64,000 nucleotides of DNA from Halorussus vallis (GTDB lineage Archaea > Halobacteriota > Halobacteria > Halobacteriales > Haladaptataceae): NCBI RefSeq assembly GCF_024138165.1, contig NZ_CP100000.1:2790001-2854000 (forward strand), read 5' to 3'. Each line of letters begins with the position of its first letter. Position 1 is the stretch's first letter. This document shows, one piece after another, positions 9,318-48,238 of this stretch. Both the position numbers and the translations under genes were made by a program. The notes under the pieces were generated by a model. That model searched no databases, had not been told where the DNA came from, and was given only the letters and a program-made list of their open reading frames with translations.

Positions 9318-10916
9318 CTACCGGGCGCCCTCGTCGTCCGCCTCCTCGGCGGCTCCCTCGGGGCGCAAGTCCGTCGCCGCGACCTGCGCGTCGATTCGCG
9401 TCAGTTTGATCGCCAGTTCGGTCGCGGCGTTCCACGCCGCTCGCTTGAGCGAAACCGGTTCGACGACGGCGTCGTCGGCGAGGACGTCGCCGACGGCGCC
9501 CCGGTCGGAGTCGACGCCCAGCGCGTCCCGCCCGTCACCGTGCCCGACGCGAAGTCGGGTGAGCGCCGCGTGGCCGTCCATGCCGGCGTTCGTCGCCAGC
9601 GTCCGCGGAACCGCCAGCAGCGCGTCGGCGAACGCCTCGACCGCGAGTTGCGAGCGGTCGTCGACCGACCGCGCGCGCTCTTCGACCGCGAGGGAGACGC
9701 CGGTTTCGACCGCGCCGCCGCCCGGAACCACCGTCCCGGTTTCCTCGGCCGCCAGCGTCGCCGCGACGGCATCCGAAACCGACTGCTCGAACTCGTCGCT
9801 GGAGCGGGGGTCGGGCGCGCGGCAGAAGAGGGTGAACGTCGGTTCGCCGGCGTCCGATTCGACCACCGTCATGTCCCGGCCCGCGGTCCGTCGGACGGTG
9901 ACGGTCGCGGTTCCTCGGCTTTCCTCGTCGAACGTCCCGAGATTGGGAACGACGCGCCCGCCGGTCGCGCGCGCGATTCGCGCCAGGTCCTCGTCGTCGA
10001 CGCGCTCTATCGCGAGTATCCCCCGGTTGGCGAGCGTCCGCTCGACCCGGTCGTTGACCGCGCCGCTCGTCAGGATGCAGTCACAGCCAGCCGCGACGGC
10101 GGCGTCCAACTGGTCCCGAAACGCCTGGCGCTCCCGGTCGCCGATAGCGACCCGGTCCTCGAACGACTCGACCGGCACCCCCTCGGTCGAATCGCCGGAG
10201 ACGCCGCCGGCGACCGACGGCACGTCGACGGTCGACGAGAGCAGGGCCAGACCCGCCCGTTCGCGCGTCCGCGGCATGTCCTCGGCGACCGGCTTCGCGT
10301 CGAGCACGACGCCCGCGACCAGTTCGGTTTCGGACTGGGCGCCGCCGAGGCGCGAGACGACCTTCACCTGCCGGCGGTCGGTGGCGGTCGCGGTCCCGGT
10401 TTCGGTTCCGGTCCCGGTTCCCCGCGACAGTTCCGCCACCGCCAGCGAGACGTACTGCGCGACGTCGGCCCGAACGTTCGGGTCCCGAGTCCCCGTGAGC
10501 GCGGTTCGCGCGACGGCCTCCCGCCCGACCGTCGAGAGCGGCGACGCGCGTCGCTCCAGTTCCTCCGACGCGACGGCCATCGCGTCGCGGTACCCCCGCT
10601 CGATGGCGGTCGGGTGGAGGCCCAGTTCGGCGAGTCGGTCGGCCTCCGACAACAGCGCGCCGAGGAGGGTCACGAGTCCGGTCGACCCGTCGCCGTGTCG
10701 CGACCGGAAGTCCGAGGCTGCCGTTCTGAGCAGTGTGACCGTCGGATTCGTGAGGTCGAGTTCTTCGAGGACTACCGCCCCGGACGACGTCGTCAGCACG
10801 GTTCCGTCTTCCCGGACTACCAATTTGCTCGCGCCAAGCGGTCCCAGCGTGGTTCGAACGACGTCGCACAGCGCGTCGAGGTCGCCGACGTTGCCACCGC
10901 CTGTCTCGGTAGGCAT
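9318..10916 (-). CDS. Diverged group II chaperonin (thermosome/TCP-1-like) paralog 2
   Basis: The 532-residue protein is a second, different chaperonin relative. Recognisable blocks are VRTTLGPLGASKLVV, HGDGSTGLVTLLGALLSEA, LGLHPTAIERGYRDA, VVPGGGAVETGVSLAVEE, and RSQLAVEAFADALLAVPRTLATNAGMD. The ATP-site loop is nearly normal (GDGST), but NDGATI has become SSGAVV, losing the Asp of that motif. The Asp before the GGGA block (VSDAVAAT) is kept. A GTGTGTETGTATAT low-complexity insertion sits near residue 170, and the acidic tail lacks a GGM repeat. It lies between the binding-protein and ATPase genes of the sugar transporter, on the opposite strand. It could form mixed rings with paralog 1; no partner is visible in the sequence. 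Confidence 0.83.
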   Translation of the reverse strand: MPTETGGGNVGDLDALCDVVRTTLGPLGASKLVVREDGTVLTTSSGAVVLEELDLTNPTVTLLRTAASDFRSRHGDGSTGLVTLLGALLSEADRLAELGLHPTAIERGYRDAMAVASEELERRASPLSTVGREAVARTALTGTRDPNVRADVAQYVSLAVAELSRGTGTGTETGTATATDRRQVKVVSRLGGAQSETELVAGVVLDAKPVAEDMPRTRERAGLALLSSTVDVPSVAGGVSGDSTEGVPVESFEDRVAIGDRERQAFRDQLDAAVAAGCDCILTSGAVNDRVERTLANRGILAIERVDDEDLARIARATGGRVVPNLGTFDEESRGTATVTVRRTAGRDMTVVESDAGEPTFTLFCRAPDPRSSDEFEQSVSDAVAATLAAEETGTVVPGGGAVETGVSLAVEERARSVDDRSQLAVEAFADALLAVPRTLATNAGMDGHAALTRLRVGHGDGRDALGVDSDRGAVGDVLADDAVVEPVSLKRAAWNAATELAIKLTRIDAQVAATDLRPEGAAEEADDEGAR

Positions 10917-45962: not shown

Positions 45963-46072
45963 GGGCCCTTAGCTCAGTCTGGTTAGAGCGCTCGGCTCAT
46001 ACTGACAACCGGATTACATTTCCGGCGTCATGGGACACCGAGTGGTCGATGGTTCGAATCCGTCAGGGCCCA
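45963..46072 (+). tRNA. tRNA-Met (anticodon CAT) with a 35-base BHB intron
   Basis: Exons 45963-46001 and 46037-46072 join to a 75-base tRNA with acceptor GGGCCCT/AGGGCCC, discriminator A, D-stem GCTC/GAGC, anticodon stem CTCGG/CCGAG and loop CTCATAA. The intron (46002-46036) lies after position 37. It forms a canonical bulge-helix-bulge: 3' bulge ACA (46035-46037), four-pair helix CTCA/TGGG, 5' bulge TAC (46000-46002) and inner helix TGAC/GTCA, topped by a CCGGA/TCCGG hairpin. Elongator Met is more likely than Ile(CAU), but the anticodon alone does not decide. Confidence 0.9.
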
Positions 46073-46155: not shown

Positions 46156-46171
46156 CTCGAACATGTTCGAG
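46156..46171. promoter_or_regulatory. CGAACATGTTCG palindrome, copy 1
   Basis: CTCGAACATGTTCGAG is a perfect 16-base palindrome ending 39 bases before the ATG at 46211. No ordinary TATA box is visible between it and the gene. Near-identical copies lie at 46995-47007 and 47721-47732. Confidence 0.7.
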
Positions 46172-46210
46172 TGAACACCCACGGCGAACCGCCACCTCGT
46201 TGCGACCACG

Positions 46211-46651
46211 ATGGTAACCACGTACAGACTGTTCGACGCGTTGCACCTGTTAGTCGCCGGCGTGTGGGCCGGGTGGACCGTATTCATGGCCGCGCTCGTC
46301 GTTCCGGCGGCGCGCGACGGTCGACTCGGTTCGAGCGCGCTCGTCGGACTGACGGAGCGGTTCGCCCGATTCTCGCAGGTGGCCCCGCTCGTCATGCTCG
46401 TGACGGGCGGATACATGGCGAGTCTGACGTTCATCTCCGACTCACTGCTGAAGACCACGCGAGGCCAACTCGTGCTGACGATGGTCGGTCTCTGGGTCGT
46501 GCTCTCGGCTCTGACCAACGTTGCGAGTCGGCGCCTAACCGCCGACGTCGAGTCGGTCGGCGCCGAGCGCTCGGCTCGCGGCGCCTCGACGGCGTTCTCT
46601 GCGGCGGCGGCCGTCGCCCTCGCACTGTTGCTCGTCGGCGGTTGGATCTGA
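46211..46651 (+). CDS. Four-span membrane protein, CopD-like
   Basis: The 146-residue protein has four hydrophobic helices. The first contains LFDALHLLVAGVWAGWTVFMAAL with a His in the span, the second APLVMLVTGGYMASL, the third LVLTMVGLWVVLSALTNVA and the last the C-terminal AAVALALLLVGGWI. The pattern resembles CopD/DUF4149-type proteins that bind copper or haem, but no function is assured. It is first in a set of small genes around a Bat-type regulator that share an upstream palindrome. Confidence 0.75.
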   Translation: MVTTYRLFDALHLLVAGVWAGWTVFMAALVVPAARDGRLGSSALVGLTERFARFSQVAPLVMLVTGGYMASLTFISDSLLKTTRGQLVLTMVGLWVVLSALTNVASRRLTADVESVGAERSARGASTAFSAAAAVALALLLVGGWI

Positions 46652-46774
46652 CGGGACGAGTCGTCGACGCCGCATTCGGCTTCTCGTTCGATAGAACTCC
46701 GCGACCACTTTCGGGCCAGCGGAACGACGCGGCGTCGAGAACTTCGACGCCGCGTCTCGATTTCGCGACCCGGA

Positions 46775-46957
46775 CTACTCCGTCTCGGTGCCGGACCGTC
46801 CCCTGCGGGCCGCGAAGAGGCCGAGGGCGACGCCGAGGCCGAAGACGACGAAGCGAGGCGGTCCTCGCCTTGCGGGTCGGTCGCGGTCGGGGTTCGGTTT
46901 CGTTCGAGCGCACTCTGCACGGGACTTCGATCGAATCGGACACGACTTCGGTGTCAT
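46775..46957 (-). CDS. Possible small single-span membrane protein
   Basis: This 60-codon frame is basic in its first half and ends in one hydrophobic span (RFVVFGLGVALGLFAARRG) and a short polar tail. On composition alone it would be doubtful. It is listed because a CGAACATGTT motif lies 37 bases before its start on the same strand, the same spacing as for the neighbouring genes. The rest of 46652-47039 shows nothing else. Confidence 0.35.
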   Translation of the reverse strand: MTPKSCPIRSKSRAECARTKPNPDRDRPARRGPPRFVVFGLGVALGLFAARRGRSGTETE

Positions 46958-46994
46958 CGACCTAGCGGAGGTGCCCCCGACCCCTCTAGATTCG

Positions 46995-47007
46995 CTCGAA
47001 CATGTTG
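46995..47007. promoter_or_regulatory. CGAACATGTT motif, copy 2 (one arm imperfect)
   Basis: CTCGAACATGTTG keeps ten bases of the palindrome CGAACATGTTCG; the last two positions are altered. It is 38 bases upstream of the minus-strand start at 46957 and just after the regulator's stop codon. Confidence 0.5.
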
Positions 47008-47039
47008 CACACCCGCCCAGTCGGTGTCTCGCGCCCGGA

Positions 47040-47681
47040 CTACTCGGTCGACTCGGCGAAGAACTCCTTGACTATCGTCTCTTCGGCGCGGTGGAGGACG
47101 ACGCTCACCGTCGACTTGCTGACGCCGAGTTCGTCCGCGAGGTCGGTGAGCGAACACCCTCTCGGGGTGTCGTAGTACCCGCCTTCGATGGCGGCCAGCA
47201 CGAACTGACGCTGACGGTCGGTCAGGAGTTCGACCGGTTCGACCGACTGCCTGACCCACTCGACTTCGAACGCGAAGCTGCTGGATTCGAGTTCGTCACG
47301 GAACTCCGACAGCCGCTCGTGGGAGGTGGTGAGTTCGCAGACCATCCAGCCGTCCTCGACGGTGTAGGGGAACTGCGGCAGGTTCTTCGAGGCGAAGACG
47401 GCGTGGTACGGGGCCGGGACGAACGGCAGCTCGAACTGGAGCAATACCGTCTGCTCGTCGGCGTGCAACACCTCCGTGTAGAGGTCGACGGGGGCGTCGT
47501 CGAACAGGTGAACGACCGCCTGGGGGTCCGACGTGGTCGCCTGCAGTACGACGAGCAGTCCCCGCTCGGTCGGGAGGGCACTCAGGATCCGGAGGTTGTC
47601 GTCGGGATGGTTCCGCGAGTGCCGGAACGGACCGCCGGCCTGCGTCACCGGCGGTTTAAACTTCACTCTTGCCAAGGGCAT
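47040..47681 (-). CDS. Bat-type (HTH_10) transcriptional regulator
   Basis: The 213-residue protein has an N-terminal sensor-like half (to about residue 150, with PFRHSRNHPDDNLRILSALPTERGLLVVLQA) and a C-terminal bacterio-opsin-activator helix-turn-helix: LLTDRQRQFVLAAIEGGYYDTPRGCSLTDLADELGVSKSTVSVVLHRAEETIVKEF. Such proteins activate nearby haloarchaeal genes, and the ligand is unknown. A CGAACATGTTCG palindrome lies 39 bases upstream and is shared with the divergent gene at 47780, so it probably controls itself and its neighbours. Confidence 0.88.
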   Translation of the reverse strand: MPLARVKFKPPVTQAGGPFRHSRNHPDDNLRILSALPTERGLLVVLQATTSDPQAVVHLFDDAPVDLYTEVLHADEQTVLLQFELPFVPAPYHAVFASKNLPQFPYTVEDGWMVCELTTSHERLSEFRDELESSSFAFEVEWVRQSVEPVELLTDRQRQFVLAAIEGGYYDTPRGCSLTDLADELGVSKSTVSVVLHRAEETIVKEFFAESTE

Positions 47682-47720
47682 ATGTCTCCTAGGCGCGAGC
47701 CGCTCTTATCCGCTCGGCCG

Positions 47721-47732
47721 CGAACATGTTCG
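47721..47732. promoter_or_regulatory. CGAACATGTTCG palindrome, copy 3 in a divergent promoter
   Basis: The 12-base palindrome lies 39 bases from the regulator start (47681, minus) and 47 bases from the membrane-protein start (47780, plus). One protein dimer here could control both genes. Confidence 0.7.
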
Positions 47733-47779
47733 AGCGAATTTCAACGGTCTGGCCGCTCCGACTGCTTCCCGTGGATACG

Positions 47780-48238
47780 ATGGACGACTCTCCCGCCGTT
47801 CGGTCCGACGAATCGTCGACGTCCGACGCGGTTCGACCGCCTGACCGCCGCGACGAGCCAGATGCGTCTCCGACGCTCTGGAGGATACGGGCGTTGCTGG
47901 CGGCGGAGGCCGCGTCGTTCTTCCTCGCCGCCGCGTTCCACGCGGGCGTGCTCGTCGGCGGATACGAACACGACGAAGCGATGCTCGCCGAGACGGTGAT
48001 CGGCGCCGTGCTGGTAGGTGGCCTGGCGCTGACCTGGGCTCGCCCGCGCTCGACATTCTCGCTCGCCGCGGGCGTCCAGGCGCTCGCACTGGTCGGGACG
48101 CTCGCCGGTGTCGTGGCGATACTCGTCGGCGTCGGTCCTCGCACCGCCCCGGACGTCGCGTACCACGTCGTCGTCCTACTGGTTCTGACGGCCGGCCTCA
48201 GACTGGCGTGGAACGCACGCGGGAGCAAATCGACCTGA
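47780..48238 (+). CDS. Four-span membrane protein of unknown function
   Basis: The 152-residue protein has an acidic, polar N-terminus (about 45 residues) followed by four hydrophobic helices (ALLAAEAASFFLAAAFHAGVLVGG, VIGAVLVGGLALTWA, VQALALVGTLAGVVAILVGVG, VAYHVVVLLVLTAGLRLAW). Two His residues lie in or near spans. No family is recognised. The ATG at 47780 is preferred to one at 47726 because the latter lies inside the regulatory palindrome. Confidence 0.72.
   Translation: MDDSPAVRSDESSTSDAVRPPDRRDEPDASPTLWRIRALLAAEAASFFLAAAFHAGVLVGGYEHDEAMLAETVIGAVLVGGLALTWARPRSTFSLAAGVQALALVGTLAGVVAILVGVGPRTAPDVAYHVVVLLVLTAGLRLAWNARGSKST

Follow-up and report, generated by a model that had tools for sequence, protein, structure and literature searches.

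In Haloferax mediterranei, a motif search over the denitrification promoters of nosZ, nor and nirK gave the consensus CGAAYATDKTYG. In nosZ and nor it reads exactly as the 12-mer CGAACATGTTCG, and mutations in the motif lowered the activity of the nos and nor promoters (PMC10062603). Within the nirK-nor cluster the same motif also precedes a bacterioopsin-activator gene, and the regulator that binds it was stated as undisclosed (PMC11218638). Our literature search found no other archaeal paper with this motif. A further described case is the bop promoter, which is controlled by Bat and whose deviant TATA is preceded by the activator site (PMC1447603). In this study we describe a cassette of four genes around a Bat-type (HTH_10) regulator in the window, by which we mean the whole 64,000-nucleotide stretch that was analysed (C1:2790001-2854000 of genome G000, a haloarchaeon that falls into the family of Haladaptatus and probably into the genus Halorussus). 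An earlier note on this DNA had taken the palindrome of the cassette for an unstudied operator; the identical 12-mer, reported and mutated in the nosZ and nor promoters and tied to a bacterioopsin-activator gene, contradicts this (PMC10062603, PMC11218638). Sites 1 and 3 of the window match the consensus exactly, and site 2 differs in the outer two bases.

Operators, genes and promoters of the cassette

Table 1. Features of the cassette in window coordinates, with operator distances to start codons.
Feature	Position	Strand	Description
Operator 1	46158..46169	.	CGAACATGTTCG, then AGTGAA to 46175; 53 nt upstream of the CopD-like gene; exact match and half-operator match
CopD-like four-span membrane protein, 146 aa	46211..46651	+	PF05425, 37.9 bits; orthologues 55-66%, operator at 49-53 nt
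60-aa one-span protein	46775..46957	-	Homologues 45-71%, operator at 49-51 nt
Operator 2	46991..47008	-	GCAACATGTTCGAGCGAA, one arm imperfect; 51 nt upstream of the 60-aa gene; half-operator match
HTH_10 (Bat-type) regulator, 213 aa	47040..47681	-	PF04967, 68.6 bits; orthologues 57-71%; recognition helix KSTVSVVLH
TATA-like element of the regulator promoter	47703..47711	-	GGATAAGAG; centred about -27; GGATAAG conserved in orthologous promoters
Operator 3	47721..47732	.	CGAACATGTTCG, between the divergent regulator and four-helix genes; half-operator runs to 47738
Four-helix membrane protein	47771..48238 (GTG 47771, or ATG 47780)	+	Homologues 46-59%; start 50 nt from the operator in homologues

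A genome-wide pattern search found the exact 12-mer twice in 5,051,069 bases, both times in the cassette (Table 1), where an imperfect, one-armed copy lies at 46997-47008. The half-operator, a directional 16-mer (AAYATGTTCGANYRAA), had three perfect matches in the genome, all in the cassette, and its control, the reversed pattern, had none. One-mismatch copies of the 12-mer number 48, with few marginal ORF starts at matching distance; as nearly all of them fall inside predicted coding sequence, a wider regulon in this genome was rejected. Counted from the outer edge of the 12-mer, the start codons at 46211 (plus), 46957 (minus) and 47681 (minus) are 53, 51 and 51 nt away, and operator 3 lies 59 nt from ATG 47780 and 50 nt from GTG 47771. 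The GTG is the more likely start of the four-helix gene because the distance is then 50 nt, as in the homologues. A start at ATG 47726, within the palindrome, was rejected, since the starts of the homologues lie 50 nt downstream. The near-constant spacing described in the earlier note is hence confirmed, at 50-53 nt with the GTG start and with the exact 12-mer found only here; of its positions 47721 was correct, and 46156 and 46995 were each 2 nt early (actually 46158 and 46997). It had also named random placement of the motif as a possible objection, and in this genome the placement is not random.

The CopD-like protein exceeds the PF05425 cut-off of 32.1 bits, which one orthologue, at only 29.1, does not reach. 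In the regulator, the PF04967 match covers residues 153-204 (curated cut-off 23.1), and a domain profile search gave no other domain above cut-off, PAS and GAF being absent. The whole protein has two cysteines; its fold search returned no match at E<=0.001, just sigma-4-like HTH matches and a weak match to Ta1207. Neither the 60-aa nor the four-helix protein had a convincing family match, and both ORFs are, on comparison, real genes, since homologues in other genera carry the operator in front. The small protein has the conserved span GPPRFVVFGxGxALGL. Three histidines are invariant in the four-helix protein, one in helix 1, one in the following YxHxEA motif and one in helix 4, and would suit a site for a metal, haem or quinone; the structural model has four helices at low confidence (pLDDT 60).

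Transcripts of haloarchaea are usually leaderless. If this is assumed here, the operator, which spans about -50 to -39 relative to the start codon, would occupy the place expected of an activator site, immediately before the BRE/TATA region. AGYGAA on the gene side of the core may belong either to the operator or to a TFB recognition element (BRE). The promoters of the CopD-like and four-helix genes are without a clear TATA, as had correctly been noted for the start at 46211. We favour activation with positive autoregulation, because the site lies directly upstream of BRE/TATA as in the Bat-controlled bop promoter. It might also be possible that the same regulator at the same operator is a repressor, or dual-acting, and is relieved by a signal like an autorepressed stress operon: an autoregulatory palindrome and a small closed regulon are typical of repressors as well, and one site serves two divergent promoters. 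However, the operator stops some 10 bp short of TATA and overlaps neither TATA nor start, promoters without TATA need help and not blocking, mutation of the same motif in Haloferax mediterranei led to lower activity (PMC10062603), and Bat and DmsR are activators (PMC1447603), so that we consider repression unlikely. The reading that we think quite probable is that of a self-activating one-component regulator, bound at the operator upstream of BRE/TATA, with a closed regulon of its own gene and the four-helix, 60-aa and CopD-like genes. The 213-aa protein would bind CGAACATGTTCG as a dimer, at roughly -50 to -39 if the genes are leaderless; its N-terminal domain would sense a signal, upon which all four genes of the cassette, its own included, would be activated. 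Direct binding, dimerisation and activation instead of repression are what we infer.

Conservation, spread and gene content

The cassette of CopD-like, 60-aa, HTH_10 and four-helix genes recurs in other haloarchaeal families, and full-length regulator orthologues were found in Haladaptatus, Natrialba asiatica and further families. The locus of Natrialba asiatica has all four genes and three sites arranged as in the window, one of them common to the divergent regulator and four-helix genes; such a shared divergent site is also present in G346, G411 and G027. Elsewhere, too, a site homologous to operator 1 precedes CopD-like genes, and asymmetric sites like operator 2 lie upstream of homologous small genes. 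Distances from operator to start in other genera are 50-52 nt for the regulator and, in nearly all four-helix homologues with a readable start, exactly 50 nt (for the other two genes see Table 1); exceptions among the regulators are G021, with its site only at -114, and G023, with none within range. In Haladaptatus genomes that carry the regulator, an unlinked pair of a four-helix and a small gene flanks a single symmetric site in divergent orientation, with 50-51 nt between the site and either start. Among ATG-started ORFs of at least 45 codons, a start lies 49-53 nt downstream of 30 of the 39 unique half-operator sites in carrier loci, and the other 5-nt bins hold 0-3. That the repeats are due to chance or are non-regulatory, as the one-mismatch copies elsewhere in the genome might suggest, is hardly credible: the spacing to starts is fixed across genomes and gene orders, and the sites move along with the genes. 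As far as sequence can tell, the palindromes with their fixed spacing are real and conserved, and they are probably functional. In Haladaptatus sp. DYF46 (L049/L094) the regulator orthologue is apparently frameshifted in its second half (L049 6001-6653), and the operator and the downstream small gene are intact.

Of the 391 genomes in one panel, six (G000, G178, G233, G332, G346, G411) have a regulator orthologue that is full-length and at least 66% identical, and the four-helix protein is present in exactly those six. Perfect extended sites (TTCRCTCGAAYRTGTTCG) were found in 6 of 8 genomes with a regulator of this subfamily (G000, G022, G023, G024, G026, G027) and in 2 of 91 without it (G003, G031); control matches were absent from all 99 relatives. 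Comparison in this way establishes that the sites exist, keep a fixed spacing and go with the regulator subfamily, and that the regulon is closed in this genome. The earlier proposal of a local and complete small regulon around a Bat-type regulator is supported, the regulator and its sites being conserved in several haloarchaeal families. Its second possible objection, a motif kept by genomes that lack the regulator, applies to the bare 12-mer, which also occurs in such genomes and is used by other HTH_10 regulators; the extended form, CTCGAACATGTTCG or GTTCGAGYGAA, is alone specific to the subfamily.

How could the cassette have been distributed? It is patchy and probably moves horizontally, because the subfamily regulator was not found in the 17 same-genus genomes examined; it would thus be a compact regulon spread between genomes. 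The cassette sits just downstream of two tRNA genes. At 45963-46072 (plus strand), directly upstream of it and adjoining tRNA-Asn, there is an Rfam tRNA match that ARAGORN missed. This is probably an intron-containing elongator tRNA-Met (CAU), and a mobile cassette might have inserted at it. The link to CopD may be older, because in three genomes (G052, G063, G061) a CopD-like gene lies at most a few kb from a regulator homologue (32-41%) that lacks this operator.

Other genomes also hold richer cassettes, in which the site lies about 49-53 nt upstream of DrrA-type ABC ATPases, short-chain dehydrogenases, a high-potential iron-sulfur protein (HiPIP) and a SHOCT protein, with 61-62 nt for one possible start. 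In three genomes the HiPIP gene (PF01355) and the regulator gene point away from each other. The richer clusters also include ABC-2 permease, Usp and luciferase-domain genes. At L091, L092, L206, L208, L087 and L088 we noted enlarged regulons with HiPIP, ABC-2 exporters and short-chain dehydrogenase, many sites being about 50 nt before the start; they also hold a 284-aa protein of no known family. Within the window the hint at metal, haem or redox is based on one CopD match. The gene mix of the richer cassettes suggests a role in envelope, redox or toxic-compound stress rather than in copper specifically, and stress defence is plausible because redox and efflux genes are found in these cassettes. 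A literature search joining CopD, HiPIP and bacterioopsin found nothing.

HTH_10 helix classes and the denitrification motif

In same-genus genomes, 39-46% homologues of the window regulator lie in most cases within about 30 kb of nirK. These homologues have CCGAACATGTTCGG-type sites upstream of their own genes, and similar sites stand before DUF2249 and other island genes. The denitrification islands L169-L171 and L260-L262 contain many CCGAAC[NN]GTTCGG sites, some 50 nt upstream of genes that include those for DUF2249 and the regulator. The denitrification-type regulators have the helix KSTxSETLH and a G beside the core in 20 of the 21 own promoters with a site; for the window type, with KSTxSVVLH, the count is 0 of 14, including the frameshifted L049, whose helix is unreadable. 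Regulators of a third class, with the helix KSTxSRVLH, lack CGAACATGTTCG at the position where it is usually found. At L186, L187, L022 and L023, which hold regulators of this class, the palindrome is absent and a CATGnTyGyGTyAAA..AGAAG-like stretch, perhaps a third operator dialect, lies at a similar distance. Since the correlation of helix and flank follows clades and the samples are not independent, we regard it as a lead and not as proof. The palindrome does not stand before all HTH_10 genes: AAYATGTT-centred sites occur in several other clades, yet most clades have no significant palindrome.

A regulator other than that of the window might bind the palindrome, another HTH_10 paralogue for example, the window regulator then being one more target. 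In this direction point the use of the bare 12-mer by denitrification-type homologues and the 61 first-look candidate HTH_10-like genes in this genome. We judge it very improbable, as the window regulator co-occurs perfectly with the target genes, no further close homologue exists in this genome at E<=1e-20, and the site flanks follow the helix class of the window regulator. Very improbable is a cassette that is no separate system and instead a remnant of a denitrification regulon. Its core operator is that of denitrification promoters, and the genome has a broken nirK: a copper nitrite reductase remnant in two frames with an internal stop (G000:C3:177619-178331; L168, about 9620-10330). However, helix class and flanks differ, no exact or half-operator site lies near the nirK remnant, other carriers such as Haladaptatus are without nirK above cut-off, and none of the four genes was seen in the denitrification islands inspected. 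No denitrification-type HTH_10 regulator was found in the genome of the window. The window regulator itself was rejected for that part, with nirK broken, no sites there and another helix class: it has the helix KSTVSVVLH, flanks of TCGAAC..GTTCGA and no nirK, nor or DUF2249 neighbours.

In the tree the SET and SVV classes, which share the operator, form separate clades with a long branch between them. Descent of the cassette regulator from a denitrification regulator is hence not supported, and the shared operator is either ancestral or convergent. For the Haloferax mediterranei motif, the SET-class HTH_10 proteins are candidate binders. It might be, with about even chances in our estimate, that the HTH_10 family reads one palindromic core through a helix patch (SVV, SET, SRV) and matching flanks, which would give insulated regulons for denitrification (SET) and for a mobile envelope-redox stress system (SVV). 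If this is true, the regulator that is missing for the Haloferax mediterranei motif would be of the SET class, and the SVV cassette would be built from CopD-like, four-helix and one-span genes, elsewhere also HiPIP and ABC-2 exporter genes.

Relation to described systems

The most useful by-product of our analysis is a candidate regulator class for a published orphan operator of denitrification, which can now be tied to a specific class of HTH_10 proteins; the cassette also shows this operator in a second role, apart from denitrification. With one regulator, three sites and four promoters in 5 Mb, this is a very small natural regulon, suited to direct study in Haloferax of activator spacing in archaea, promoters without TATA and the specificity of regulator and operator. 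Two uncharacterised families of membrane proteins gain a regulatory context.

NarO of Haloferax volcanii and DmsR of Halobacterium are, like the window regulator, short Bat-like HTH proteins without PAS or GAF (PMC11218638). Unlike theirs, the neighbourhood of the window regulator has no respiratory operon. NarO reportedly (Hattori 2016) has four conserved N-terminal cysteines, whereas the two of the window protein cannot form a four-cysteine motif. The Bat/bop regulon of Halobacterium shares the HTH_10 DNA-binding domain, an activator site in front of a deviant TATA and the small co-regulated set (PMC1447603); Bat sensu stricto differs in that the window regulator is without PAS or GAF and the cassette without bop, brp and crtB1. 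In the Haloferax mediterranei system, with its bacterioopsin-activator-like gene E6P09_00735 (PMC10062603, PMC11218638), the targets are denitrification genes, which those of the window are not. The outer flanks are T..A here and C..G there, the helix is SVV here and, to judge from a nirK-linked regulator of another genome (L260), SET there, and the published distance from motif to ATG is 66-79 nt, compared with 50-53 nt in the window. Both systems have a short Bat-like regulator and carry sites upstream of the regulator gene and of clustered targets, and the core 12-mer is identical to that of nosZ and nor. Judged by its sequence, the window system belongs to a known kind of HTH_10 regulator-operator system, of which it is a variant independent of denitrification.
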